A DNA stretch of 64,000 nt, taken from the NCBI RefSeq assembly GCF_023701525.1, contig NZ_JAMQAW010000042.1:1-64000 (forward strand), read 5' to 3'. This document shows, piece after piece, positions 25,199 to 62,853 of the stretch. The stretch's first letter is position 1; each line of letters begins with the position of its first letter. Source of the DNA: Streptomyces albipurpureus (GTDB taxonomy: Bacteria > Actinomycetota > Actinomycetes > Streptomycetales > Streptomycetaceae). The position numbers and the translations under genes were made by a program. The notes under the pieces were generated by a model that saw only the letters and a program-made list of their open reading frames with translations, ran no database searches and was not told the DNA's origin.

Positions 25199-25798
25199 AT
25201 GCTCGCGATCGGCGCGCTGCTCGGCTGCGCCACCACTCTGCTCGCCCTCGCCATCCGGCGCAACCTGCCCCGCACGCCGCACTGCGGGTGGTGCGCGACC
25301 GCCTCGAACTGGCCAACCTCCCGGCACGACGCCCTGCTCTGCCGCGGCTACGTCCAGGACCGTCGCCGCGAACGGCTGCGCGACATCAGGTACGGCCGCC
25401 CCGTCGAGGAGCCGAACCCGTGGGGCGAGTCGTACCTGCTCGACGGAGAGATCGCCCGGCGAACCGAAGCCGATGCAATGAACACCAAGGCCACGACAGT
25501 CGTTGGTGACTTCGCCCAGGCGCTCGCCGAGCTGGCCGATGGATATCCGACCGATCCGGAGGGCACCGTGCCCGTGATCGTCACGGTCATCGCTCCGACG
25601 GTCGGCGAGCAGCACCAGGTCCCGATCGAGCCCGGCCAGGTCGACTGGCTGACTGCCCTGGTACGGGGCGAGCTGGATACCTGCCGCGCCGCGCACTCCG
25701 ACGGCACCGGCCACTGCCGGGGCACCGGCTTTGCGGGTGGAAGCGGAGGTGCCGCCCTGCTTGCTGAGCTGCCCGCCGACGACGAGAGCCAACCGTGA
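25199..25798 (+). CDS. Small membrane-anchored protein, 199 aa
   Basis: ATG after GACGGAGA (a GTG one codon earlier is possible). One N-terminal membrane segment (MLAIGALLGCATTLLALAI) followed by PHCGWCATAS and LCRGY, a likely zinc site, then a basic stretch (RRRERLRDIRYGR). The rest is acidic, ending in a Gly-rich tail. Type of membrane insertion unclear. Function unknown. Confidence 0.55.
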   Translation: MLAIGALLGCATTLLALAIRRNLPRTPHCGWCATASNWPTSRHDALLCRGYVQDRRRERLRDIRYGRPVEEPNPWGESYLLDGEIARRTEADAMNTKATTVVGDFAQALAELADGYPTDPEGTVPVIVTVIAPTVGEQHQVPIEPGQVDWLTALVRGELDTCRAAHSDGTGHCRGTGFAGGSGGAALLAELPADDESQP

Positions 25799-25993
25799 CG
25801 GCTGTCACTCTGCGGTCAAGACACCGACCTTGCTGCCCGGCTGCGCGCTGTTCTTCCGAGGCCAACCGCCACCAGCCTGCGATTCCTGTCCTACGGCACG
25901 TGTTTCAGGCCCACGGACCATGTCAATGCGAAGGCATCAACTGCCGCACCCGTCGGCGTTCACAACGCACATCATGAGAAAGGCGAGACCGCC

Positions 25994-26311
25994 ATGGTTG
26001 AGTCCACGACCACCGTAAGGCACGACGTCACCGTCGACTTCGGCTGCATCGAGCTCACGGGAGCACTCGTGCACGACAACGAGAACCGTCTGCTGGAACT
26101 CGAAAATGCCGAGGGCCCCGCAGAGCCCATCTCGATCAGCCTGCAGGTCTACGGTCTCACGCCCGAGCCCGGGAACGTCTTCATCAAGGACTGGTCCGAG
26201 CACTGTGGCCTGACGGCTCGCCTGGCGCAGGCGGGTCTGGTGGCGCCCGTGCAGACGCTCACTGTTGGGCCGTATCTCTCGACGGCCTACGAAGTGCAGG
26301 TGACGCTGTGA
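25994..26311 (+). CDS. Unknown protein, 105 aa
   Basis: GAAAGGCGAG precedes the ATG. Beta-rich (VRHDVTVDFGCIELTGALV, VQTLTVGPYLSTAYEVQV). Single soluble domain. In the same frame just past its stop lies a short hydrophobic sequence (VGALIAPAVVLVLWLST) without a good start codon, ending at 26463. Function unknown. Confidence 0.6.
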   Translation: MVESTTTVRHDVTVDFGCIELTGALVHDNENRLLELENAEGPAEPISISLQVYGLTPEPGNVFIKDWSEHCGLTARLAQAGLVAPVQTLTVGPYLSTAYEVQVTL

Positions 26312-26643: not shown

Positions 26644-26754
26644 CGGATGGTGGCATGGCAGATAACTGAATATCTCAGCGACCCAATTCCACCCCATTGC
26701 GCGCGGCCGGCGACATCGATCCGGGCGCTTTGCTGTACTCAAGGAGAATCCACC

Positions 26755-27243
26755 ATGTCGAATCCGAACAGCACCGCATCCGTCGTCGGTCGCCTGGCGA
26801 ACGACCCGAAGGTCTTCGAGAACAAGGACGGCTCCAAGAAGGTCATGCTCACCGCCTTCGTCGACCGTGGCTACACCGACGCCCAGGGCAACCGCATCTC
26901 CGATGCCCTGCCGTTCGAGGCCTTCGTCCGCGCCCAGACCAAGGGTATCGGCCCCTTCGCGCATGTGCACAAGGGCGACCTGGTGGCCCTCGGTTACGAG
27001 CCGCGCATGAACCGCTACACCAAGAACGGTGTGGAGGAATTCAAGCTCAAGCTGGAGATCCAGAGCGTCTCCTTCCTGGAGTCGCGCACGACCACCCGGG
27101 CCCGTCTGGCGGAGCGCGTCACCGACGCCGAGGCCCGGAACCAGGCCCTGCAGGCCCAGGCTCCCACCTCGGTCGTGGCTGTCGCTCCGGCCGTCGCGTA
27201 CGCCAGCGCCGTGGACGAGCAGCTGCCCTTCCCGACCCGCTGA
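26755..27243 (+). CDS. ssb: Single-stranded DNA-binding protein
   Basis: 162 aa, OB fold over residues about 1-115. The layout SVVGRLANDPKVFENKDGSK, then VMLTAFVDRGYTD, LPFEAFVRAQ, KGDLVALGYEPRMN and FKLKLEIQSVSFLE is that of bacterial/phage SSB. The C-terminus (DEQLPFPTR) keeps an acidic-aromatic tip but not the classic DDIPF. AAGGAG precedes the ATG. It coats ssDNA during replication or transfer. It lies alone behind three mini-hairpins, and three sites before a ssDNA-binding gene suggest special regulation. Confidence 0.88.
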   Translation: MSNPNSTASVVGRLANDPKVFENKDGSKKVMLTAFVDRGYTDAQGNRISDALPFEAFVRAQTKGIGPFAHVHKGDLVALGYEPRMNRYTKNGVEEFKLKLEIQSVSFLESRTTTRARLAERVTDAEARNQALQAQAPTSVVAVAPAVAYASAVDEQLPFPTR

Positions 27244-46729: not shown

Positions 46730-46797
46730 GCCACCGGCTCGATGGTGCTGATCTCGGCGGTTGCGGCCTTCGAGAAGGCACCCAGTGCCTCGCTCAT
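46726..46797 (-). CDS. 23-aa micro-ORF between ParM and the methylase
   Basis: Its ATG overlaps the ParM stop (TGATG) and its TGA overlaps the methylase ATG (ATGA). Sequence MSEALGAFSKAATAEISTIE then PVA. Such double coupling implies that ribosomes translate through it. It may serve only for re-initiation, or be a real peptide. Confidence 0.45.
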   Translation of the reverse strand: MSEALGAFSKAATAEISTIEPVA

Positions 46798-48095
46798 CAC
46801 GCCACCTCCCTGCTGCGCTTGCCCCCGGTCTTCGCGGCGAGGGCCTGCTGCTCAACGTGACGGGCCGCGATGTACAGGCCCTCGCGGTTCAGGTGCCGCG
46901 AATAGCTCGAGTCGAGGTAGAGCACGGGCACGTCGCCCGCGGCCTTCAGTAGGGCCGGGTGCAGCAGGTGCTTGATCGGACCCGAGCCACCGCCGTAGAC
47001 GTAGACAACCTCAGTCGTCGCGCCGGCCTGCGAGAGAACATCGCCGAAGGAGGAGACGATCTCGTCGACCAGGTAGCTGGCCTCGTCCTCGACGAAGCCC
47101 GCGGCCCGCCGGTGACGGTTCCTCACCAGCACGGACGGCTCCGCGTGGAGGAAGTCCGCCAGCTGCTTGCGTGAGGAGAACTGCAGCGCGGCGTCCGACT
47201 CGCTCATGCGCTCCATGGCGTTCATCAGCGCGGTGCCGTAGCCCTCGGCGAGCGTGGCGGCCGCCTCTGCGTTGAACCGCCCGTCGGTGAAGACCGGGAA
47301 GTTCACGGTGCCTTCGCCGACGTCGACGCCGATGGTGTGCTGGACCGCCACCAGGTCGGAAGCCGAGACGCCCTCGACGATGGACGCGTCACGGGTGCGC
47401 AGATCATCGAGAAGAGCCTGGGCGAGCGGCTCGCCCTTGTCGGTGATGGCGAACTGCGCGGAGGCACCCTCGGCCATCACCTGGACGTCGACGAACTGCA
47501 GGCGCACCGAGACAGGGGTGCTGAAGTTCTTGATCGTCACCAGGTGCACCGCGGGGTCGGAGCTGCCCAGCAGGCCGATGAACTCGGCGGCGTAGGCGTG
47601 GCGGCGCGCGACGAACTCGGAGATCGGCAGCGCCAGGCCGGCACGCACGTGCACGCGCAGCTCGTGATCGGGCAGCGCGCCGTTCTCGCTGACGTAGTCG
47701 CGCAGGGCCTTCGCGGCGAAGACACCCAGGACCAGGACCTTGCTCAGCTCCTGATCGGCCTTGGAGTGCTTACCCAGCACCTCGAACTCGGTGAACTTCG
47801 AGCCGCGTACGCTCAGCGCCGCCCGGCCGAAGATTCGGCGGTCCGACGCCGCCACCAGGGGAGTGGTGAGCGAGCAGTCGATCTGGTTGTAGAAGTCGCC
47901 GGCCATCACGGTGGCCGCATCCGCGTCGGGGAGCGGCACCTTCGGCGAGGTGCGGGAAGTCGAGACGACCGCGCTGGGCAGATCGATCTCGTCGAAAGTG
48001 CTCTGCTTCGTGTTCTGGATAACGCCCTTGACGTAGCCGTTGCCGACGTCGATGCCGCCGGTGAGGGTGATGATGTCGGTGGTGTTCGTGCTCAT
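46797..48095 (-). CDS. ParM-like actin-fold segregation ATPase
   Basis: 432 aa. Actin-fold landmarks are visible: phosphate-1 loop GGIDVGNGYVKG (about 13-24), phosphate-2 loop TIGVDVGEGTVNF (about 250-262) and adenosine motif VYVYGGGSGPIKHLL (about 370-384). This family (ParM, AlfA, Alp7A) forms filaments that push plasmid copies apart (established). GAGGGG lies ahead of the ATG. It follows the ParR-like gene by 58 bases, the reverse of the classic parM-parR order. A phage tubulin/actin-like role is an alternative. Confidence 0.85.
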   Translation of the reverse strand: MSTNTTDIITLTGGIDVGNGYVKGVIQNTKQSTFDEIDLPSAVVSTSRTSPKVPLPDADAATVMAGDFYNQIDCSLTTPLVAASDRRIFGRAALSVRGSKFTEFEVLGKHSKADQELSKVLVLGVFAAKALRDYVSENGALPDHELRVHVRAGLALPISEFVARRHAYAAEFIGLLGSSDPAVHLVTIKNFSTPVSVRLQFVDVQVMAEGASAQFAITDKGEPLAQALLDDLRTRDASIVEGVSASDLVAVQHTIGVDVGEGTVNFPVFTDGRFNAEAAATLAEGYGTALMNAMERMSESDAALQFSSRKQLADFLHAEPSVLVRNRHRRAAGFVEDEASYLVDEIVSSFGDVLSQAGATTEVVYVYGGGSGPIKHLLHPALLKAAGDVPVLYLDSSYSRHLNREGLYIAARHVEQQALAAKTGGKRSREVA

Positions 48096-48153: not shown

Positions 48154-48615
48154 TCAGCGCCGAGTGCTCGCCATGATTTCGTCGATGGACGCCTGCTTCG
48201 GCGGCTCCGGCGGCGGGATGGGGGTGGAAGCCTCGGCCGTCTCGACCGGTGCGGGAGCCGACTCGGGCCGGGGCACCGGCGCTGGGGCTGTCTGCTCGAC
48301 GACGACGTCGGTCTGGTCGGTGACTACGGGTTGCTGCTGCGGCTGGACCGGCCGGGCGGCCGGCCGGGGCTCGGCTGTTGCTTCGTCGTCCTCGCGCTGC
48401 TCGATAGTCTCCAGCGGTGGTCGGCCACGCCGCGGCAGCTGATCGACGGGCTTGTAGAAGACGTCGATGTACCCGTCGCGCTGAATGGACTCCCGGATGA
48501 GCTGTCGCAGCGACTGCGAGATGTTCTCCTGCTGATCGAGCCACTCGATCACCGAGGTATCGGCAGCGGGCACGGTCCAGCGAACCTTGCGAGGTTCACC
48601 CGACTGGTTCGCCAT
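48154..48615 (-). CDS. ParR-like ribbon-helix-helix adaptor
   Basis: 153 aa from the ATG behind GAGGTGA. Residues about 8-55 read as a ribbon-helix-helix DNA-binding fold (VRWTVPAADTSVIEWLDQQE, ISQSLRQLIRESIQRDGYID). The rest is a disordered Pro/Glu/Gln tail ending in a short helix (PPKQASIDEIMASTRR), the place where ParR-type proteins contact ParM filaments. Together with the next gene this makes a type II-style partition pair. A centromere should lie nearby, probably upstream. Confidence 0.7.
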   Translation of the reverse strand: MANQSGEPRKVRWTVPAADTSVIEWLDQQENISQSLRQLIRESIQRDGYIDVFYKPVDQLPRRGRPPLETIEQREDDEATAEPRPAARPVQPQQQPVVTDQTDVVVEQTAPAPVPRPESAPAPVETAEASTPIPPPEPPKQASIDEIMASTRR

Positions 48616-48770: not shown

Positions 48771-49463
48771 GCCCCATTCGAGACGCGAGTAAGGTGTCAT
48801 TGGCGTCCCTGTTGAGTGCCGGCGGGTACACCAGCGAGACGCCGCAGTGCCCCACCTGGGACGACCGCATGAAAGCCGCCGACCCGCTGCACCTATGAGC
48901 TCCACGTGCGACGCAACGAGGGCTCCCACGGGACATCCGCGAGACATCTGGGGTCACGGCACCGTCCCGGGGGAACCGCATTCGAGTACACATGGCGTCC
49001 CGTCGGCGTCCTGGCTGTGTCTCCTGAAGGACGTCACTGGTCCCCCCTGCGCAGGAGCGCCCTCCGAGGGCGCTGCGTGCGACACCAGTGCGGCACAGTT
49101 GGAGCGCGCACGAAACATCGTGGGGACGCGCGCGGGACTCAGAGAGGCCCATTGGCAGTAGTCGGCGTCTTGTAGGTGTTCCAGTCGCGTCCCCTGTGTG
49201 TCCCGTTTGAGTCACCCCGAAGACGCGATAGAGACGCTGATTCACGGGGCCGCGAAGCCTGGATGCGCCCCTAGCTGAAGCCCTCCGGCGGGTACGTTGA
49301 GACAGCCACGGCCTGCTGGTGGAGCGTGGCCAGTACAGCCGTCGGCGAGACTCCGACACAGCGCTGGTGAGACGGTCGGGACAGAGGCGTCATCGAGCCG
49401 TCGTGGTCGCGCAGGGGAGAGTAAACGGAAGGCCCCCGCACGCAGTGAGCCTGCGAGGAACGA

Positions 49464-49528: not shown

Positions 49529-49986
49529 CCCTGGAGGAAGACGACAACGGCCCGATGGCGCTGGAGCTGTTCGTCGTGCTTGATGGGGTAGCTGGTCGCA
49601 GCAGTCGGGGCTCTCTTCTTCTGATGCGTCCACGAGAGACCGCCCCGGGCTCGCCGCGCAAGCGCGAAACGGAACACAGCCCGGGGCCGGATCGTGCGTC
49701 GACAAGGCAGTGCCGAACGCCCGCCTCGGACGCGGTGCGTGAAGTCCTGGCGCCCTGCCGCGGCAGCACCCGGAGCAAGGACCGGAGACGGTGGAGTCAC
49801 GTCGATGCAGCCAGCACAACGCGATGGTGCGAGGTCGGCTACGCCGTCCGCAGCGAACGACGGAGCAGAGCGCTATTCAGAGCCGAAGCGGCAGCGTCGC
49901 GAGAGACCGGATCCACTGCGCGGCGAGGGCTGTATCGCCTGCGACAGCAGGGCGATGAACCGGGGCTGCGCCCCGTCGGGAGCAGA

Positions 49987-50158
49987 CCCGTACCCCCACC
50001 TCGCTCGTGCCTCACGAGGACGGATGAACATGGGGTACGGCCGTATCACGGAGGGCAAAACAGCAGTACAGCTCCAAGGCGCAATGACCAGGGGAAACAG
50101 CCCGTCCCGTACCTCCGCTGCGCGGAAAGGGGGAGGGGTACGGGGCAAGAGGGTACGG
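49987..50158. repeat. Cluster of GGGTACGG repeats
   Basis: Five copies within 172 bases: CCCGTACCCC (49987), GGGGTACGG (50032), CCCGTACC (50106), GGGGTACGGGG (50135) and GGGTACGG (50151), in both orientations. Iteron- or operator-like. Confidence 0.5.
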
Positions 50159-50528
50159 ACCGTTTCCCCTGGTGTTCCAGGCTTCCGCTGACGCTCCAGC
50201 CGTGAAACAGCGACGACGACGACAAGGAAGCAAAAGGGCATAAGGGAACCTGATAACACGTGTCCTGGGGACCCTCGCTCGGCTCGGCCGCTCTGCTGCG
50301 CTCCGAGGACGTGTCAATCGGCACTGTCGACGGGTTCCACCGTTCGCTTCGCTCACCGGTCCGTCGGTCGTCGGCGCTCCCTCCGGCTGTGCCCAGCGCT
50401 GTGCTTGAGACAGGAAGCCCGCCTGGCGCCGCGCGCCCGGCTTGAGTGAGAAGTGACGAGCCGTGCGACGGCCCGCTATGCGATCCATCCGGGAGTAGAT
50501 CACGCCATCAAGATCTTCCGGATCGTCA

Positions 50529-51638: not shown

Positions 51639-51974
51639 CTACTTGCTTCGGTCGATGCCGTGCGCCTCGTCATAGGCCTTCTGGAGCGTCTTCGGGATGC
51701 GTCCTCGTTCCGCGAACTCGTAACCCTTCTCCTTGCCCCAGGCGCGGATCCTGTCGCGCTCCTCAGGAGTCGTCTCGGGTACGACTCGCTTCTTGGATGC
51801 CGGCTTCCCGGCTTTCCGACTGACCTTCACGTACGACTTCAGCGCATCTTCGAGGCCCTTCTGCTCCTCAGGGGTGAGGTCGACTTCGTACCAGGTGTCA
51901 CCCAGGCCGAAGGTCACGGTAGCCGCATCCGGCTTACCACTCAGATCTGACTCGACAACGCTTCGAATGGCCAT
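51639..51974 (-). CDS. lsr2: Lsr2-family nucleoid protein
   Basis: 111 aa, the usual Lsr2 length. N-terminal dimerisation part (AATVTFGLGDTWYEVDLTPE then EDALKSYVKVSR), basic linker, and C-terminal DNA-binding part (RIRAWGKEKGYEFAERGRIP) with the RGR AT-hook-like core at residues 90-92. Lsr2 binds AT-rich DNA and silences acquired genes (established). A replicon-borne copy may help the element stay unnoticed or compact its own DNA. No ribosome site; a -10 box 7 bases from the ATG points to a leaderless message. Confidence 0.9.
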   Translation of the reverse strand: MAIRSVVESDLSGKPDAATVTFGLGDTWYEVDLTPEEQKGLEDALKSYVKVSRKAGKPASKKRVVPETTPEERDRIRAWGKEKGYEFAERGRIPKTLQKAYDEAHGIDRSK

Positions 51975-52183: not shown

Positions 52184-54037
52184 ATGCCGATGCTCCGCAC
52201 CATCGACGACCATTCGCTCACCGAGGAGGACACCGATCTCTTCGAGCTGCTCTGCCGGCGCAGGGGGTGGTCGAAGCAGTACCTGAAGGAGATCGAGTCC
52301 ACCGAGCACGACGAGCTCCTGGACCTGGCCGAGATGGTCGAGGCCCTTCATGACGCCCGGAGCGGGGGCAAGAAGGTCACCATCGCCCCCGACTTCGACA
52401 TGGACGGCATCTCCTCCGGGGTCCTCGGTTATGCCGGCCTTTCCGAGCTCGGGTTCGATGTCGAGCTGCACCTGCCGGACTATCGCCGCGGCCACGAGCT
52501 CGCGCCCGAGGACATCGTCGAGATCCAGGCGAAGTGGCCCGGCACGCGGGTCCTGCTCACCTGTGACGGGGGAGTGAACTCCCACCGAGGTATCGCCGCC
52601 GCGCGTGCCCTGGGCTGGACGACGCTGGTGACCGATCACCACGAGGAACTCGCGCCGGGCTCGACTGCGGACATCACCGTCGATCCGTGCCGGATCGACG
52701 AGACCTACGCCCACACCGGGATCTGCGGTGCCCACGTGCTTTACCAGGTGATCGAGGCCTACACCCGCGTGCACCGGCCCGAGAAGCTCTGGGAGATCCA
52801 CCTGCTGCGCCTCTTCGCCGGCCTGGGCACCGTCTCCGATGTCATGCCCGTACTGTACGAAAACCGCCAGTTGGTGCGGGACGCGATCTCGATTGCCCGT
52901 CTGCTGCGCGTTGCCGCGCCGAAGACGATTCCCAATTCCTGGGGTGGGTTCGACGCTGACCCCCACGCCATCGACGTCGAGCAGTCGATCCTGATGCAAC
53001 TGCTGCGCACCGAGCCGCATCACCCGGTCTTCCTGCGGGCCTTCGAGGGCTTCGCGATCGTACTCAAGGCCTTCGCCCAGGCCGGCAAGATCCGAGACAT
53101 AGGCGACCTCGACGAAGGCTTCTTCGGCTTCTACCTCGCCCCGGCGATGAACAGCCCCCGGCGCACGGGAGCCTCGCTTGAGCCGTGCTTCGCGGTGTTC
53201 ACGGCTGCCGGTGCTGACGTCAAGCTCACGGCCGCCCACCAGGTGATCGAGACCAACGAGCTGCGCAAACAGCTGGTCATCACACACATGAATGAACTCG
53301 TCACCGAGGAGCAGCCCTTGGCCCCGTGGGTGTACTTCTCGGACGCCTACCCGGGCATGTACGGCTTGCTGGCCAACCGGATGATGGAACTCAACGGCCA
53401 CCCGGTCGTCGTCGTCAACCGACCCGCCGGCCCCGACGACTTCGTCGGTGGCTCCGGTCGCGCGCCGGGATGGTTCGACATCATCACTCACCTGGAGCCG
53501 CACGACGGTATCAGCGCCATCGGACACCAGCAGGCCTGTGGTGTCCGCGTCGCGAAGGCCGAGAAGCTGGACGACCTCGCCGCCGTGCTGCGGGAGGCCA
53601 CCCAGGTCGCCCAGCTCGCCGTCAGCACCGCCGGATCGAACGCTGATCTCGTGCTCGGCCCGGATACCGACTGCGACGTTGGCCTCGAGGACCTGCAGCC
53701 GTTGTTCGAGCTGGTGCGCCGGACCGAGGGGCTCAAGCCCTTCGGGCACGGCTTCACCGCGCCGGTCGTCGAGATCGCGATCGAGCCCCTTGGCCTGCGC
53801 GTGGACCGGATCGGATCCGAATCGCAGCACCTGCGCCTGGTCACCCGGTCCGGCCTGTCCTGCCTGTGGTGGAACGTCGCCGAGGAGACGTTCGACGCGA
53901 TCCAGAGCTTCGTGCGGCGCGCCAGCCGCACCGAACTCGGCACCCTGCGCTTCACGGCGACGCTACAGCTGAACACCTTCCGAGGCGACACCCGCGTCCA
54001 GGCCGTCATCAACGAACAGATCAACACAGCTGCTTGA
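52184..54037 (+). CDS. DHH-family phosphoesterase, RecJ-like
   Basis: 617 aa. DHH motif I PDFDMDGISSG (D70, D72, D74), motif II CDGG (D128), motif III TDHHEEL (151-153), then DPCRIDETYAHTGICGAHV. The second half has a DHHA1-like region with GGSGRAPGWF and AIGHQQACGVRVA. RecJ relatives are 5'-3' ssDNA exonucleases acting in recombination and repair (established), and phage and plasmid versions accompany replication genes. Start ATG preceded by GAGAGGT. Next gene follows 21 bases later. Confidence 0.85.
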   Translation: MPMLRTIDDHSLTEEDTDLFELLCRRRGWSKQYLKEIESTEHDELLDLAEMVEALHDARSGGKKVTIAPDFDMDGISSGVLGYAGLSELGFDVELHLPDYRRGHELAPEDIVEIQAKWPGTRVLLTCDGGVNSHRGIAAARALGWTTLVTDHHEELAPGSTADITVDPCRIDETYAHTGICGAHVLYQVIEAYTRVHRPEKLWEIHLLRLFAGLGTVSDVMPVLYENRQLVRDAISIARLLRVAAPKTIPNSWGGFDADPHAIDVEQSILMQLLRTEPHHPVFLRAFEGFAIVLKAFAQAGKIRDIGDLDEGFFGFYLAPAMNSPRRTGASLEPCFAVFTAAGADVKLTAAHQVIETNELRKQLVITHMNELVTEEQPLAPWVYFSDAYPGMYGLLANRMMELNGHPVVVVNRPAGPDDFVGGSGRAPGWFDIITHLEPHDGISAIGHQQACGVRVAKAEKLDDLAAVLREATQVAQLAVSTAGSNADLVLGPDTDCDVGLEDLQPLFELVRRTEGLKPFGHGFTAPVVEIAIEPLGLRVDRIGSESQHLRLVTRSGLSCLWWNVAEETFDAIQSFVRRASRTELGTLRFTATLQLNTFRGDTRVQAVINEQINTAA

Positions 54038-55530: not shown

Positions 55531-55793
55531 ACGTTCCAGTGCAACACCGATCCTCTGCCGCCAACGATAGCAGTGTCACGGATTGCCCACAATGGGCGGC
55601 GAGTGCCAGTCCAATGCCATCCAGCATCTATTGGCGCCTCGTGATCGACCGACTCGGACGGGATTCCGACTCGTGCCCGGCGGACGTGCCGGGGGCCTTC
55701 TGCGAGGCTCGGCCGAGCCGCCTGAGGGCCACATGGCGGCTTGGCGTGGCGGTCTGCCTCAAACCTGGCCGCCGGAAGGCCATCGCTGCCACC

Positions 55794-56222
55794 TGTACCA
55801 CGAGACGTGGTACACCCCCGAGAACCGCGTCTGACCTGGGCAAGCGCCTGTACTGCGAGACTCTTTCCCGCACCGGGTGTACCACGTGGAGGTGTCGGCA
55901 TGGTACGGCGTTTTGCCTGGTCAGCCAGCATTGCTCGCCCGCGTACCACGAGTACCACGTTCTTCTGGCCGTTTCCATAAGGGGTGCGTTCGGGAGCGGT
56001 CAGGCACTCCAGCCCCAGCTCGCCAGTTCGTTCGGCTGTCTTCCCGCGCGTGTATCTAGTCCCCTTTTCCTGGTACAAGTGGTACAGGGGGTATGTAAAC
56101 ACCGCCTGACCAGGCGTAACGCCTGTACCACGCAGAGGATGCCGCGTGGTACAGCCTGCCCTTGAACGCACGCAGCTACCGCTCTGAGCTGGAAAAACAG
56201 GTGTACCACGTCAAGTGGTACA
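55794..56222. repeat. Iteron-like array of TGTACCACG (about 12 copies)
   Basis: Copies of 5'-(T/C/A)GTACCACG in both orientations: 55794, 55806 (minus), 55878, 55901 (minus, partial), 55942, 55951, 56069 (minus), 56078 (minus), 56124, 56145 (minus), 56202, 56214 (minus). Two pairs are inverted with a 3-base gap (TGTACCACG-AGA-CGTGGTACA, and 56202/56214), others direct. Typical of sites for a replication initiator or partition protein. Located about 470-900 bases before the helicase start. Confidence 0.8.
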
Positions 56223-56572
56223 CGCTCAGATACTCATAGGGGGTATGTGGCTCTCGCGATCCCCCTGGAGGGCAGTCGATCGATGCCCTGATGGCAGTCG
56301 ACTCGGCCGGTCAGAAGAACTCCTCCGAACCCCGACCGCAGGCCGGGCGGCTCACGCCGCCCGCGGGTGCGTGGTCGAGCGTGAGGGTCAGTGCCTCCGG
56401 GTGCGCGCTCCACGGAGTCGCCGGCCTCTCACGTCCCATCCAGGGCTCGCGACGCGTGCGGCCGTAGCGGTTGCGCGCGCCCTCTGCAGTCCCTGCCGGT
56501 TACCCTTTAATTTGCCAGTCGAGAGCCGTCTAATGCCCCAATCGACTTACTTATGGACTGATGGATCAATCG

Positions 56573-56602
56573 TTGCGAAAGGTTGCCCGGGTGGCATAGT
56601 GT
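56573..56602 (+). promoter_or_regulatory. Promoter of the SF3 helicase gene
   Basis: TTGCGA (56573-56578) and TAGTGT (56597-56602) are 18 bp apart. About 88 bases upstream of the ATG. The downstream CCATTCGATTGCGAGTCAAG resembles a sequence beside the par promoter (48774) and may be an operator. Confidence 0.6.
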
Positions 56603-56689
56603 CGAGATCGCGTTCCATTCGATTGCGAGTCAAGTCGGCTTCCCACGCATCGCCGGCAGGAGCTCGGTCACGATCGAGAAAGCAGCAAC

Positions 56690-58552
56690 ATGACACCTCC
56701 TGATGCCCCCACATCTGTATCTACCACCGGTTCCAGTGCCGGACCGCGCACCAACCCCGTCGCTGACGTCCTGACCAGCGTCATGGGGTACTTCTCGCAG
56801 CGCGACGACATGGCTCCGCCGAACGAGATCGTCACCTACGTCACCGCGGCCTACCTCGACCAGATCGACCCGACCGATCCTCCGACGCCCCGCGTGCTGG
56901 AGAAGGAGCTGCTGGCGATCGTGGGCGGCGTCATCAAGTCCGAGAACGCCAAGGCGGCCACGGCCGCCGAGAAGTACCCCCTGCCGAGATATCTGACGCA
57001 CTGGCAGGTCGCGCAGATCCTCGTGCGTCTGCACCATGTCATCCGCATCGCACCCAACGTCAAGAACACTGACCGTGAGTACGACCTGCTGGCGATGTAT
57101 CAGCCCACGGGGGGCGCGCGTGGGACGTACACCACTAGTGAGAACGACATCCGCACGACGGCGCGCATGTACAACACCCAGCTGCGCCTCAAGGAGTTCG
57201 ACGAGGTTCTGGCCGTCCTGCGCGAGGACAGCCCGCGCAGGCACCAGAGCACGAACCGCGACTTCATCGCCGCGCGCAACGGCATCGTCTTCTACGGCGC
57301 TGAGCCAGTGGACGTCACGATCTTTGGCAAGAACTTCCACTTCGAGCCCAAGCAGGTCCACTCCTTCGACCCCGCCATCGTGCTGCTGACAAAGAACGAC
57401 GTCGACTACGTGGACAACGCCCCGCGGCAGGTCATCACGCACCCCGATGACGGAGACTGGGACGTCGTCACCTGGATCGAGGAGCTCTTCGACCAGCCCG
57501 GTGACGAAGGCCTGGCTGACCTGATCTGGGAGATCATCGGCGCGATCATCCGGCCGTATGTGCGTTGGCGCAAGACCGCCTGGTTCTACTCGACGGAGGG
57601 AAACAACGGTAAAGGCACGCTCTGCGCGCTCATGCGCAACCTCCTCGGAGGTGGCGCGCATGCCTCGATCCCGCTCTCGGACTTCGGCAAGGACTTCGCG
57701 CTCGAACCGTTGGTGCGCGCCAACGCGATCATCGTCGACGAGAACGACGTCGGCGCCTTCATCGACAAGGCGGCCAACCTGAAGGCGATCGTGACCGCCG
57801 ACGTCATCATGGTCAACCGCAAACACCGGATACCGATCGCCTTTCAGTTCTTCGGATTCATGATCCAGTGCCTGAACGAGTTCCCGGTCGCGAAGGACAA
57901 ATCCGGTTCTTTCTACCGCCGCCAGCTCTTTGTGCCCTTCACCAAGAGCTTCACCGGGGCAGAGAAGACGTACATCAGGGACGACTACCTCCAGCGGCGC
58001 GAGGTTCTGGAGTACGTCTTCTGGTACGTGATCAACCGTGCTGGCGCGTCCTCCCCGGGGAACTACTACGAGCTCTCCGAACCGGTGGCGACCAAGGCGG
58101 TCCTGGCCGAGTACAAGGAGGCCAACGACCCCGTGCGCGACTTCTGGGTTGAGTTCCGCGATCGGCTGGCCTGGGACCTGGCACCGTTCACGTTCCTTTA
58201 CGACCTGTACAAGGCCTGGTTCGCCGACGTCTCGCCGTCGGGTTCAGCCGTGAGCAACAAGCGGTTCATCACCGACCTCGTGGCGATCGTCAAGCTGGAT
58301 GTCCTGTGGCACTGCCCGGACAAGAACCGCAAGATCCGACCCGGCCAGATGATGCACACCCCCGAGGTACTCATCGCTGAGTACGAGCTGAAGAAGTGGA
58401 TGCACCCGAGCTACACCGGCAGCGACCCGAAGAAGAAGTCGCAGCCGGCGCTGCAGGCCAACTACCGAGGACTGCTCCGCCAGACGGGCGCACCCGCCCC
58501 GACCGACGACACCACTGAGGAACAGGAGCCACCTGGTCACGGCGATGGCTGA
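56690..58552 (+). CDS. SF3 replicative helicase (D5/P4-like)
   Basis: 620 aa. Superfamily 3 ATPase core: Walker A GNNGKGT (304-310) in WFYSTEGNNGKGTLCALMRN, Walker B AIIVDENDV (346-354), then FMIQCLNEFP (390-399, sensor Asn396) and GSFYRRQLFVPF (406-417) with arginine fingers. This is the plan of phage and plasmid primase-helicases of the D5/DUF5906 type. The N-terminal 290 residues lack a recognisable primase site, so priming may be cryptic or done by another protein. It likely opens the origin at the iteron array upstream and works with the PolB gene next door. Confidence 0.88.
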   Translation: MTPPDAPTSVSTTGSSAGPRTNPVADVLTSVMGYFSQRDDMAPPNEIVTYVTAAYLDQIDPTDPPTPRVLEKELLAIVGGVIKSENAKAATAAEKYPLPRYLTHWQVAQILVRLHHVIRIAPNVKNTDREYDLLAMYQPTGGARGTYTTSENDIRTTARMYNTQLRLKEFDEVLAVLREDSPRRHQSTNRDFIAARNGIVFYGAEPVDVTIFGKNFHFEPKQVHSFDPAIVLLTKNDVDYVDNAPRQVITHPDDGDWDVVTWIEELFDQPGDEGLADLIWEIIGAIIRPYVRWRKTAWFYSTEGNNGKGTLCALMRNLLGGGAHASIPLSDFGKDFALEPLVRANAIIVDENDVGAFIDKAANLKAIVTADVIMVNRKHRIPIAFQFFGFMIQCLNEFPVAKDKSGSFYRRQLFVPFTKSFTGAEKTYIRDDYLQRREVLEYVFWYVINRAGASSPGNYYELSEPVATKAVLAEYKEANDPVRDFWVEFRDRLAWDLAPFTFLYDLYKAWFADVSPSGSAVSNKRFITDLVAIVKLDVLWHCPDKNRKIRPGQMMHTPEVLIAEYELKKWMHPSYTGSDPKKKSQPALQANYRGLLRQTGAPAPTDDTTEEQEPPGHGDG

Positions 58553-58640: not shown

Positions 58641-58760
58641 GGCGTCCTGGCGCATGGATGCCCCGCGGCGGGGCACTTCTCGCGACTCCGTCTGAGGCAG
58701 CGCCTGCCTCCTCCCCAGACACCGGCCGTGATGGTCGGACCGACGAAAGGAGATCCCGCC

Positions 58761-61700
58761 ATGACCGCACAGCGAACACCCGTGACGGCCTCGAAGACAC
58801 GCTTCACCTTCTACGACATCGAGTCGTTGTCGGACGCCTTCACTCTGTGCGCCTATACCCCGCAGCCCGACAGGGCCGTCGACGACCTGGAGATCTTCTT
58901 CCTCTCGGACGTCCAGCAGCTCTCCGACGCCGTGGACCCGCAGGCGCTCTATGAGGCCGTGGTGCGCTCCAACCCGGGCCTGCCCGCGGTGAGCGTCCAG
59001 CTGTGGAACCTACGCGGCGAGCGGGGCAACCTCCGTCTCGCCGAGCTGATGGGCCTCTCGAACGCCGACCAGGTCAACGACCGCGGCGAGGTCTCATCCT
59101 ATCCGGCGAGCCTGCGCCCCGTCTGCGACACGGATCCCGAGTACGACCCGCTGAAGCACCCGTTCCTGGCCGGGTACAACTCGCTGAACTACGACATGAC
59201 CATGCTCGCGCTGTATCTGATGGAGGCCTTCCCGGCTCCGCACTCCGGTCGTCTCGTCCAGCCGACCACAGCGCGCGAGATGCGCGAGCACAACGACGCG
59301 CTGTTCAACGAGCACATCGAGTACATGCCCGGCTACCTCGGCTGGAACGGACCGGCCGCCAAGATCCGCCGCGCCATGATGCACTCGGGCCGGCACCTGG
59401 ACGTCGCCCGCCTCAACGAGCTGCAGACCAAGGTGAGCCTGAAGCGCCTGCTCGGGATGCTCGGCCGCCAGATCAAGGAGTCCGAAAAGCTCAGCCACGA
59501 CACCTCGATCACCACGATCGAGGACCTCTACGAGCTGCTGGCCTACAACGTCTCCGACTGCCTGGGACTGGCCCAACTCTTCCAGCACCCGGCCTACGCC
59601 AGCAACTTCGACCTCAAGGCCGGCCTGTTGGCACAGTACTTCGAAACCGTCTACGCCAAGAACGGCTCGGTGCGCCGGGACCGCCTGACCATCGACTCGT
59701 CCTCCGCGAAGTTCGTCGGCCGCATCCTCGCGCCGTACACCTCGCTGAACGACATCGAGACCGTGTCTTTCCTCTATCCGGCCAAGGAGGTCGCCGACGA
59801 GCGAGGCATCTCCCAGGTCAACGTGCTCGACGAGTGCGTGCGCTTCTTCGAGGAGAACGTCGCACCTGACCCCGCCAAGGACCCAGCCGCGACGCCGGTG
59901 CAGGCCATGGCACACCGTCAGTTCATACAGGTCGTCGACTACTACCGTTCGATCGAGGGGCAGAACTTCAACGACTCCGTGGATTACCGCGACCTGTTCG
60001 ACCTCCCGGCCAGGTCCTTGCGCGAGCTGCCGAAGACGCCGAACAACGTGCCCTACTTCCACCGCGACGCCTCCCCGTCGTCGTGTTTCGCGACGTTCAG
60101 CACAGGTGGCATCCACGGCGCTGAAGCGGACATGAAGGTCTTCGACTCCGACTCCTTCGAGCACCGGGAGCAGGCAGCCATGATCGGTCTCGCCAAGCTC
60201 CTCTACCCGGACGCCAAGGACTTCGTCGCCGAGGCCAAGCGCCAGCACAACCTACTCGCGCTGCCCGACGGCACGGCCGTCGACAAGCGGCTCGTGCTGC
60301 TGGGCTCGGACCCGAAGAAGGTGAAGTACCGCAAGTCGAAGAAGGACGACCCGGACCAGGCCGAACAGCTCGCGCGTGCGCAGGCCCAAGTGCCCGATCC
60401 GGCTCAGCTGCTGGCCACTCAGCGTCCGGACACCGAGGCGATGCACGTGCGCCTGGCCGACGGAACCGTGCTCGACGGCAAGGTCGTCCTGGCCGTCACC
60501 TCGGCGGTCAAGGCCGTCTACCGCGATGAGCCGGCGAGGAAGGCGCCCGAGCTGTTCACCACGAAAACCGACGGGTCCACCAAGCTGCACCCGAAGTTCG
60601 CACGGACCTCGGCAGGCCTCGTCATTCACGAGGACTTCACCAGCTACTACCCGAACCTGCTGCGCAACATGAGGGCGTTCTTCAATCCCGAGCTGGGCGA
60701 GGACCGCTACGCGACGATCTTCTTCGAGAAGGAACGTCTGGGCTTCGAGATGAAGCAGCCAGGGATCTCCGCCGAGGAGAAGACCCGGCTCGCGACCTTG
60801 CGCAACGGCACGAAGCTGATTCTTAACTCGGCCTCTGGAGCCGCTGACGCCGCACACCGGACCCCGATCAGGATGAACAACCGCACCATCTCGATGCGGA
60901 TCATCGGCCAGCTGTTCAGCTGGCGGATCGGACAGGCGCAGACGCTGGCCGGCGCGCGGATCATCTCGACGAACACCGACGGCCTCTACTCCGTCGTCGA
61001 CGGCGACAACGGCTTCGACGAGACCACCAACAACCAGGTACTCGCCGAGCAGCAGGCCGCCATCGGCATCGACATCGAACCCGAGCTGATGTTCCTCATC
61101 AGCAAGGACTCGAACAACCGGCTCGAGCTGGAGCCACCCAGTGAGGACCGCAGCGTCGCCGACAGCCCGATCATCACCGCCTCCGGCGGGACACTGGCCT
61201 GCCACGCAGGTACTACCCCGACGAAGTCGCTTGCCCACCCGGCCGTGATCGACTTCGGCCTGGCCCGCTACCTGCAGGCTGTCGCCAGCAGGGGAGAGGA
61301 AGCTCTTGCCGAGCCGTTCGACCCTGTGCTGGGCCGCAAGGTGATCGAGGAGGCAATCGACCCGGCCGATCCCGTACGGACACTGCTGCTGTTCCAGAAC
61401 GTCCTCGCCGCTTCGCGCGGATCGATCACCTACCCGTTCGCCGCCGACCCGGTCTGCGCCGGGCCCGACCGTGACGACGGCGAGGACGCCGATGGGCAGC
61501 TGGTGAACCCGCAGGCCCTGCAGATGGTCAACCGGGTCTTCATCGTCCGCGACGGCACCGATGGTGCCGTGAGCCTGCACAACGCCGGCGCATGGAAGGT
61601 GAACCCGGCCAGCCAGAGCAAGCGGCGCGAGTCCGGCAGCGCCGGTGTGCGACGTGATCCGGTCGCGCTGACGATCCTGCGCCACCACGGGTGGGCGAAG

Positions 61701-61934
61701 AACCGCAGCGAGGCCAGCACCTCCGACGGCCTCAGGCTGCTGCCCGATGACCAGGACGCCGTGATCCGCCGAATCAACGGCATCGATCCGTACTGGTCGG
61801 TCGTCGTCGTCAACGACGACCTCCGCGCGCTGCCGCCCACCCGGGTCGAGCAGCTCATCGAGGCGCTCGATCTCGGCATCTACACCCGGATGCTTGACGA
61901 GACGTTCACCAAGAACTGGAAGAACGTCGCCTGA
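58761..61934 (+). CDS. Family B DNA polymerase
   Basis: 1057 aa from the ATG behind AAAGGAG. Exonuclease motif I FYDIESLSDAF (D19, E21) starts the protein. Polymerase motif A is HEDFTSYYPNLLRNM (D625), motif B KLILNSASGAADA (K685, N689), motif C STNTDGLYS (D740). Motif C has NTD instead of DTD, a variant of phage-type enzymes. Other exonuclease motifs probably lie within residues 130-290 (YNSLNYDMTMLALYL, YNVSDCLGLAQLF). A large insert (about 510-600, Lys/Asp-rich) separates the halves. It would replicate the element together with the SF3 helicase. No terminal-protein region is obvious. Confidence 0.9.
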   Translation: MTAQRTPVTASKTRFTFYDIESLSDAFTLCAYTPQPDRAVDDLEIFFLSDVQQLSDAVDPQALYEAVVRSNPGLPAVSVQLWNLRGERGNLRLAELMGLSNADQVNDRGEVSSYPASLRPVCDTDPEYDPLKHPFLAGYNSLNYDMTMLALYLMEAFPAPHSGRLVQPTTAREMREHNDALFNEHIEYMPGYLGWNGPAAKIRRAMMHSGRHLDVARLNELQTKVSLKRLLGMLGRQIKESEKLSHDTSITTIEDLYELLAYNVSDCLGLAQLFQHPAYASNFDLKAGLLAQYFETVYAKNGSVRRDRLTIDSSSAKFVGRILAPYTSLNDIETVSFLYPAKEVADERGISQVNVLDECVRFFEENVAPDPAKDPAATPVQAMAHRQFIQVVDYYRSIEGQNFNDSVDYRDLFDLPARSLRELPKTPNNVPYFHRDASPSSCFATFSTGGIHGAEADMKVFDSDSFEHREQAAMIGLAKLLYPDAKDFVAEAKRQHNLLALPDGTAVDKRLVLLGSDPKKVKYRKSKKDDPDQAEQLARAQAQVPDPAQLLATQRPDTEAMHVRLADGTVLDGKVVLAVTSAVKAVYRDEPARKAPELFTTKTDGSTKLHPKFARTSAGLVIHEDFTSYYPNLLRNMRAFFNPELGEDRYATIFFEKERLGFEMKQPGISAEEKTRLATLRNGTKLILNSASGAADAAHRTPIRMNNRTISMRIIGQLFSWRIGQAQTLAGARIISTNTDGLYSVVDGDNGFDETTNNQVLAEQQAAIGIDIEPELMFLISKDSNNRLELEPPSEDRSVADSPIITASGGTLACHAGTTPTKSLAHPAVIDFGLARYLQAVASRGEEALAEPFDPVLGRKVIEEAIDPADPVRTLLLFQNVLAASRGSITYPFAADPVCAGPDRDDGEDADGQLVNPQALQMVNRVFIVRDGTDGAVSLHNAGAWKVNPASQSKRRESGSAGVRRDPVALTILRHHGWAKNRSEASTSDGLRLLPDDQDAVIRRINGIDPYWSVVVVNDDLRALPPTRVEQLIEALDLGIYTRMLDETFTKNWKNVA

Positions 61935-62198: not shown

Positions 62199-62527
62199 TG
62201 CATGAAGAAATCGCGTCAACCGACGCCTCCGCCCACGACGACGATACCCAGGCCCAGCGGGAGAAGAACACGACCTGCGAGGGCATCCTGGTCCGTCGGG
62301 GCCTGATCTGGCAGAACCTCGACACCCGGCAGAGCAACCGCCACGTCGTCATCGAGTCAGTTGCTGACGGGGAGGTCCTGGTCCGAGATCACTACGGCAC
62401 GAAGCGCTCCACCCTCAGCGTCTCCCGAATGCACACCCACTCCTCAGGCCTCCGGCTCGTCTCGCCCGGCGAGCTGAAGTACGGTGCGCCGAAGGCCCCT
62501 TCGGGTGAGACGTGTGAGAGCCGATGA
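62198..62527 (+). CDS. Unknown protein, 109 aa
   Basis: ATG overlaps the upstream TAA, AAGGAG before it. Acidic start, then a beta region (CEGILVRRGLIWQNLDTRQS, HVVIESVADGEVLVRDHY) that looks like a small SH3-like barrel. Coupled by ATGA to the nuclease gene, so probably a partner of it. Function unknown. Confidence 0.6.
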   Translation: MHEEIASTDASAHDDDTQAQREKNTTCEGILVRRGLIWQNLDTRQSNRHVVIESVADGEVLVRDHYGTKRSTLSVSRMHTHSSGLRLVSPGELKYGAPKAPSGETCESR

Positions 62528-62853
62528 CGTCCCCGCGTGAGCGGGACATCGAGGGCTACCTCCTTGCCCAGTGCCGGGCACACGGCTTTCTGTGTCTGAA
62601 GTTCGTCTCTCCGGCCCGCGGGGGAGTGCCCGACCGGATCGTCATCGCCCCCCGCGGCACCGTGTTCGTCGAGGTCAAACGCCCCGGCGGCCAGTTGAGG
62701 AAGCTGCAACACCTCACGCACGCCAAGTTGCGCCGGCACGGGGCCGAGGTCCACGTCGTCGACAACAAGCCGAGCGTCGACGCGTTCATCGCCCACCTCC
62801 TCGAGTCCCCATCCGACCAACAGAGAGCAGCACCATGCCCCACAGATACATAG
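62524..62853 (+). CDS. VRR-NUC nuclease
   Basis: 109 aa, a single VRR-NUC domain: RERDIEGYLLAQCRAHG, FVSPARGGVPDRIVIAPRG (D37), VFVEVKRPGGQL (E50, K52, Q57), then RHGAEVHVVDNKPSVDAFI. This PD-(D/E)XK fold is found in FAN1 and, as a stand-alone domain, in phages, where it cuts branched or Holliday-type DNA (established for relatives). Coupled to the upstream gene by ATGA. It likely resolves branched replication intermediates (inference). Confidence 0.9.
   Translation: MTSPRERDIEGYLLAQCRAHGFLCLKFVSPARGGVPDRIVIAPRGTVFVEVKRPGGQLRKLQHLTHAKLRRHGAEVHVVDNKPSVDAFIAHLLESPSDQQRAAPCPTDT

Follow-up and report, generated by a model that had tools for sequence, protein, structure and literature searches.

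What is the role of a cluster of short repeats that lies in a gene-free stretch just ahead of a helicase gene? This question is posed by a contig of Streptomyces albipurpureus (NZ_JAMQAW010000042.1, 156,206 bp, part of a 9.37-Mb genome and called C76 below), of which the first 64,000 bases were analyzed and are referred to as the window. A sequence-only reading of the window had taken the cluster, here named array A, for a candidate origin or partition site. Features of the window, related loci and the neighboring genes incline us towards the first of these, so array A may well be a DnaA-independent replication-initiation site for the SF3 (P4-family) helicase encoded downstream of it in a giant conjugative Streptomyces element.

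A mirrored array of twelve sites

The limits of array A (~55785-56255) were set by its copy on a 45.6-kb plasmid, which shows no shared sequence outside them; around the copies that are linked to a helicase gene, the shared sequence extends further. Its features are as follows.

55785..56255, no strand: array A, ~460 bp, noncoding, with 12 sites of GTACC core in two mirrored six-site arms, centre at ~56013
55794..55814, no strand: outer left site pair, inverted with a 3-base gap, TGTACCACG AGA CGTGGTACA
55878-55886 (plus) and 55899-55907 (minus, two mismatches): left-arm sites
55942..55959, plus: left inner direct pair, period 9
56069..56086, minus: right inner direct pair, period 9, which mirrors the left inner pair and adjoins the lowest-GC bin of the array
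56124-56132 (plus) and 56145-56153 (minus): right-arm sites, invariant in 13 of 13 copies
56202..56222, no strand: outer right site pair, inverted with a 3-base gap, its first site unchanged in all 13 copies
55831..55840 (plus), also 55915-55924 (minus), 56106-56115 (plus) and 56184-56193 (plus): second motif, CTGACCTGGG

The description of a 9-bp sequence recurring about twelve times in 430 bases, as inverted pairs with 3-base gaps and as direct pairs, is borne out by these coordinates. Eleven matches to TGTACCACG with at most one mismatch (six exact, five with one mismatch) lie within 55794-56222, and a twelfth site, CGTACCATG at 55899-55907, has two mismatches, while dinucleotide shuffles of the array region (n = 500) gave a mean of 0.33 matches and a maximum of 4 at the one-mismatch threshold. 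The whole window holds 17 such matches against a shuffle mean of 9.8 and maximum of 16, a modest excess, so the signal lies in the clustering. A motif-blind 8-mer density scan ranked array A first in the 156-kb contig and also first in a complete 639-kb relative. The region has no second copy in its own genome, where the site-pair pattern is matched without mismatch by the two pairs of array A and with at least two mismatches at all other places. The stretch was also said to be gene-free, and gene calling placed no genes between 54843 and 56690; an annotated 393-bp hypothetical gene of the 639-kb relative would be equivalent to ~55.04-55.43 kb of the window, outside the array. Shuffles, density scan and lack of genes together rule out a chance or coding repeat.

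The strands of the sites (+ -, + -, + + in the left arm; - -, + -, + - in the right) are mirrored about 56013, with mirror partners that sit 1 to 11 bases off the exact mirror position when worked out by hand. Comparison of the left arm with the reverse-complemented right arm gave a score of 31.5, against a maximum of 9.5 in 300 shuffles and 12.0 in the direct orientation. When the sites were masked, the residual symmetry gave no signal (2.0 versus a shuffle mean of 3.5), so the mirror symmetry of the array rests on its sites. The second motif, CTGACC(T/A)GG, has four occurrences in the window. Three of these each precede a member of the set of 12 sites, and the one at 55831 precedes TGTACTGCG, where four intact relatives (L060, L061, L064 and L006) have TGTACCGCG. 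This motif, the symmetry of the whole array, and a second array 5.5 kb upstream (array B, below) were absent from the sequence-only reading.

GC content in 20-bp bins, taken over 13 copies, is lowest at the inner ends of both arms (bin 55950, 45%; bin 56050, spanning 56050-56069, 37%; bin 56090, 46%), and the centre of the array is GC-rich (67-74%). A lower-GC stretch had also been reported after the array and is present at 56480-56640 (53% GC versus 66.7% for the contig). Two other parts of that description were not recovered: a terminator scan found no terminator upstream of array A, and a scan for sigma-70-type promoters found none.

The single terminator-like hit of that scan is on the minus strand at 56201-56223, where the last site pair and a T-run form a hairpin; this does not exceed chance (1 versus a mean of 0.6). 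A structured RNA is disfavored: covariation was looked at in the 56202/56214 hairpin, whose innermost position, as judged by eye, sets G against A in 11 of the 13 copies, and array A has no match in Rfam at gathering thresholds.

Conservation, the linked helicase gene and the element

Searches of 392 genomes of the genus, of plasmids, and of GTDB contigs by pattern scan yielded 13 intact copies of array A (the window, L006, L007, L056, L057, L058 and L060-L066) and a partial copy (L067); L055 and L063 are one record, counted once, and 11 of the 20 matching genomes in the genome search were dropped because their matches were of 47 bases or fewer. A viral home for the array was considered and rejected: a phage collection gave no match to the DNA of array A, and a pattern match in IMG/VR (L059) was discarded because inspection by eye identified it as a tandem-repeat coding sequence. 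In the open-licence literature, none of the papers listed for the site words in Streptomyces was relevant by title. The copies are 72.6-82.3% identical to that of the window and contain 11 to 13 sites each. Across the 13 copies, 90 of 108 columns in the sites are invariant, compared with 25 of 40 columns within the CTGACC motif and 92 of the 313 remaining ones. When the site mask was shifted circularly, only one of 460 shifts equaled the conservation of the sites, which are more conserved than the spacers between them.

The array is also linked to a particular set of genes, which in the window are placed as follows.

52184..54037, plus: RecJ-like DHH nuclease gene, the conserved upstream neighbor
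56690..58552, plus: SF3 (P4-family) helicase gene, TIGR01613 above cut-off, DUF5906 at residues 299-411, Pox_D5 at 478-533
58728..61934, plus: DNA polymerase gene (phrog_1252) in the direction of the helicase gene, family-B motifs seen by eye only
62524..62853, plus: VRR-NUC nuclease gene

The helicase gene comes next after array A in 12 of 13 intact loci, 0.40-0.45 kb downstream, and the last site ends ~470 bp before its start codon. When the 392 genomes were searched for this helicase (E <= 1e-30), it was found in 8, the same 8 that contain a full-length array A; one genome (G320) has a partial array and no SF3 gene. Both counts reflect in part the common descent of one element, so the eight genomes are not independent events. 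The RecJ-like gene precedes array A in 10 loci, and a gene for a DNA polymerase of ~1,060 amino acids follows the helicase gene in 11, the L057 locus ending before that position.

The helicase scores 145.8 bits against TIGR01613 (P4-family primase C-terminus; cut-off 108.7). Its residues 440-620 can be aligned, at 20-27% identity, with the C-terminal parts of SaPI-like proteins encoded on IMG/VR contigs, and a profile of this C-terminal alignment matches residues 660-793 of 7ola, a match that is partly by construction because the SaPI-like rows within the profile carry it. On its own, the helicase matches 7ola over residues 212-526 only (E 2.7e-42). This structure was deposited as a DNA primase, and we take it to be the SaPI5 protein. 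The sequence-only reading had found no obvious DNA-binding domain to match the repeats and had named the helicase N-terminus as a possible binder; given the Pox_D5 match at 478-533, the C-terminus is probably the first candidate instead. Both structure models were poor (mean pLDDT 55.2 and 54.8).

Close relatives of the helicase are rare outside the genus, being found in 2 of 394 class-level genomes (E <= 1e-40), one of which is the genome studied here. Single-protein queries of IMG/VR revealed no relative of the helicase or the polymerase, an alignment query revealed 11 distant relatives of the helicase, and tblastn matched 407 phage records, all below 60% identity and mostly from Streptococcus phages.

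Positions 1-132 kb of C76 are colinear, with gaps and some rearrangement, with the part of NZ_CP109461 that runs from 558 kb through 0 to 94 kb. This record is the complete 639-kb circular plasmid mentioned above (strain NBC_01454), in which array A lies at 5.4-5.9 kb and array B at 630.9-631.4 kb, and its annotation includes a topoisomerase, ParM/StbA, a MobL relaxase and a T4SS conjugative DNA transfer protein. The topoisomerase was found in 7 of 7 genomes tested and MobL in 6 of 7. Array A is on a contig of 7.9-12.3 Mb in five of these seven; all five contigs also contain the topoisomerase gene and four of them contain MobL, with 135-342 kb between the two genes by subtraction. The element is thus conjugative by the genes it contains and often resides within what is presumed to be the chromosome. 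No paper on Streptomyces elements with such a gene set was recognized by title in the open-licence literature.

Several other observations were made on the element. Its further products include a topoisomerase of type IA and SSB-like and Lsr2-like proteins (1070-3445, 26647-27243 and 51639-51974 of the window). In the 639-kb plasmid, TnsA/B/C-like genes (L006 193-3952) are inserted 31-82 bp outside the first site of array A, and a TnsA/TniQ-type cluster (623389-630030) is inserted ~0.45 kb from array B; two clusters of the same Tns genes adjoin array A in S. turgidiscabies Car8 (L056). Three loci (L083, L084 and L087, in G268, G249 and G320) are apparent remnants of the element, which keep the actin-like gene and array B, match the RecJ-like gene in pieces only, and belong to genomes in which the helicase was not found.

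Candidate functions of arrays A and B

As an origin, array A would be used by the helicase itself. The helicase subunits would bind the 12 sites by way of their C-terminal domain, and each mirrored arm would nucleate one assembly, the two facing each other. The stretches of low GC along the inner arm edges (bins 55950, 56050 and 56090) may then melt, two hexamers could be loaded head to head without DnaA, and the neighboring DNA polymerase and VRR-NUC nuclease would join in synthesis and processing. An origin is favored by the linkage to the SF3 gene, by the two-arm layout and by the relatedness between the helicase and Rep of the SaPI5 type. In 13 of 14 loci, the 600 bp around array A contain no DnaA box (at most one mismatch), as expected of an initiator that loads itself; the window is the exception, with a box of one mismatch at -182.

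Other observations count against an origin at array A. The GC-skew inflection that had been proposed as a check, and that would support an origin without strictly defining one, does not appear: the skew of the 639-kb plasmid has its extremes not at array A or B but at ~194 and 537 kb, two positions outside the part shared with C76, the former in a place rich in IS elements and introns, and the skew of C76, a draft contig, shows no turn at array A. In addition, the strict DnaA boxes of the 639-kb plasmid are at array B rather than array A, the centre of array A is GC-rich, and the array lies upstream of the helicase gene. The helicase of Gordonia plasmid pGKT2, a more distant one at 46% identity, has no such array upstream of its gene. 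Occurrence at several sites of the replicon away from replication genes had been named as a sign against an origin; array A is single in its own genome, but it is also found on an unrelated plasmid (L007) away from any helicase gene, so this sign is half present. If the origin reading is right, array A gives a family of very large conjugative elements of Streptomyces, equipped with their own helicase and polymerase, a candidate origin, and illustrates how such elements might replicate without DnaA.

The DnaA boxes lead to array B, which lies with a partition gene pair and a third array on the other side of the RecJ-like gene.

49930..50360, no strand: array B, a second noncoding array, CCGTACCC / GGGTACGG, 5.5 kb upstream of array A
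48780..49240, no strand: array C, a weak array of GRGACGC/GCGTCYC repeats that lies upstream of the adaptor gene and is a candidate for the segregation site
48154..48615, minus: short adaptor-like protein gene upstream of the actin-like gene, ribbon-helix-helix-like by eye only
46797..48095, minus: actin-like partition protein gene (phrog_691), annotated ParM/StbA in the 639-kb plasmid

Array B was first seen when the 45.6-kb plasmid was compared with C76 (window positions 49954-50347, noncoding, 78.6% identical); it ranks joint second in the density scan of C76, second in that plasmid and eighth in the 639-kb plasmid, and matches to it were found in 14 of 392 genomes, in one case over 58 bases only. 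Within 800 bp of array B, 10 of the 12 loci examined out of 15 have at least one DnaA box (at most one mismatch), the window and G046 having none, and the copy on the 45.6-kb plasmid also has no such box. In ten element loci (193 kb in total), all 11 exact occurrences of TTGTCCACA, described as the high-affinity DnaA box of S. coelicolor (PMC4285127), are within ~100 bp of array B. The 639-kb plasmid contains TTGTCCACA and TTATCCACA once each as its only two strict boxes; both flank array B and none is at array A. These flanking boxes make array B of the relatives a candidate DnaA-using origin, so array A is probably not the sole origin of the element. Array B also occurs in G046 and, in part, in G150, which have neither the actin-like gene nor the helicase (L085, G046:C227, 12677-13082; L086, G150:C452, 13098-13311); these contigs are partly related to the 45.6-kb plasmid.

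It is therefore conceivable, though we consider it unlikely, that array A is an operator array for the helicase-polymerase operon, bound by the helicase or another regulator, while replication starts at array B with the DnaA of the host. That array A precedes the operon in 12 of 13 loci, and that canonical boxes flank array B, fits this proposal. However, an operator needs less than 12 sites spread over a pair of mirrored arms that together span 430 bp and end ~470 bp ahead of the start codon, the 45.6-kb plasmid has kept the sites without such an operon beside them, and array B of the window itself has no DnaA box.

The 45.6-kb plasmid (L007; NZ_CP109058.1, strain NBC_01304) contains both arrays at 25469-26301, with array B inverted and array A 42 bp away. 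It has no helicase, polymerase or actin-like genes, encodes its own ParA as well as MobF and a coupling protein, and shares with C76 beyond the two arrays 302-bp and 61-bp DNA matches and three protein matches (one weak). The same genome (G283) has the full element on its 10.66-Mb contig (L065). Arrays A and B of the plasmid group with the resident copies in trees (local supports 0.92 and 0.999). Its array B is 93.5% identical to the resident copy versus 90.8% to the next, and the same stretch is missing in both; its array A is 85.7% identical to the resident copy versus 85.0-85.5% to several others, a slight gap, so the grouping rests on the tree and on array B. The plasmid and resident copies of array A differ at 4 of 108 site positions versus 54 of 312 others (p = 1.6e-4), so the sites have been kept.

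One proposal that would account for this, to which we give a low probability, is that arrays A and B together are portable control sites for both replication and maintenance of a two-origin element, array A being DnaA-independent and helicase-loaded and array B DnaA-boxed. The NBC_01304 plasmid, which has gathered both back to back without the matching genes, would then be a satellite that is copied or kept by proteins of the resident element; that it is a satellite at all is possible. A dependence of this plasmid on array A for its replication is weakened by two relatives (L115 and L116) that lack both arrays and by another noncoding stretch (31.7-32.5 kb) that it shares with three relatives, which suggest that it may have an origin of its own. 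No Rep family was found in 47 of its 52 proteins (five short ones excluded) among the best 25 of 42 Pfam and best 25 of 56 NCBIfam matches. A satellite of this type would be a plasmid counterpart of phage satellites. With the full element on its largest contig and bare sites on a plasmid, NBC_01304 would be a clean natural case that is suited to asking whether plasmids exploit the replication proteins of another element.

That array A is instead a partition (centromere-like) site, the second function named by the sequence-only reading, now seems improbable. Sites of this kind typically contain arrays of short repeats, pGKT2 has a dense intergenic CAGTAATACTGG-like array just before its ParA gene (NC_018580, ~182060-182420), and the element encodes an actin-like/adaptor pair, the adaptor-like protein having no family match. 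Yet this pair is ~8 kb from array A and has its own repeats, array C, directly upstream (7 in 800 bp versus 0.41 expected; 2 to 7 in the five relatives counted), placed where AlpA is described to bind the alpS repeats in prophage CGP3 (PMC4446434). The actin-like gene was found in 11 of 14 genomes tested, and three of these (G249, G268 and G320) keep it without an intact array A, which co-occurs with the helicase instead, although one deletion could remove array A and the adjacent helicase gene together.

The transfer genes point to a conjugation site (oriT or clt-like) for the transfer proteins, a function to which we assign only a slim chance: the element has genes for a MobL relaxase and for the coupling protein of a T4SS, clt sites with multiple repeats are described for Streptomyces (PMC3583192), and the 45.6-kb plasmid, with its MobF and coupling-protein genes, carries array A, yet mobL is placed ~64 kb from the array in C76, at a position that is itself a prediction, and the array adjoins replication genes and co-occurs with the helicase. 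The Tns clusters just upstream of array A in the 639-kb plasmid and at L056 could mark it as the end of a Tn7-like transposon with TnsB sites, which is very improbable, as the other 11 of 13 intact loci have no such clusters beside it, the plasmid insertion lies outside its first site and the array is single in the genome of the window.

Relation to known replication and partition systems

The arrangement of the partition genes is like that of AlpA/AlpC in prophage CGP3 and of pGKT2, with the adaptor gene upstream of the actin-like gene; in CGP3, alpS is described as 24 repeats at the alpAC promoter (PMC4446434). Plasmid pGKT2 also shares DHH, P4-family helicase and polymerase genes with the element, although its helicase is not accompanied by an array like A.

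Phage P4 has a two-locus layout for its alpha protein, ori1 and crr, and arrays A and B are similarly two cis loci kilobases apart. Unlike those of P4, arrays A and B differ in their repeat words, and array B has DnaA boxes in relatives. The repeats of P4 are described as bound by a C-terminal winged helix of alpha (PMC4234260).

Among Streptomyces theta plasmids, pWTY27, pFP11 and SCP2 are described as having a repeat-bearing or noncoding origin beside an initiator gene, as would be the case for array A (PMC3583192). The likeness to array A is one of layout. The pWTY27 origin is given as ~300 bp with 7- and 8-bp repeats (PMC3583192).

Like array A, the origins of SaPI and PICI elements (TIGR01613 or SaPI5-type Rep) have two sets of short repeats beside a P4-family helicase gene, and PICI origins are described with two iteron sets (PMC6092414). 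These origins are downstream of the helicase gene whereas array A is upstream; PICIs have an AT-rich region between the iteron sets whereas array A has a GC-rich centre and drops to low GC (37-46%) solely along the inner arm edges; and array A, unlike them, has 12 sites in both orientations. A further comparison is provided by Cch2 of SCCmec, which, like the helicase of the window, is related to SaPI5 Rep (PMC7581432). The putative origin described for Cch2 differs from array A in having three iterons, in lying downstream of the gene and in its host and element (PMC7581432). Its repeat region reads TACCACTTAAT in that account and resembles the GTACCACTT form of the array A sites, perhaps by chance, and Cch2 is described to bind its direct repeats by its C-terminal domain (PMC7581432), the same part of the protein that is probably the first candidate for binding array A.
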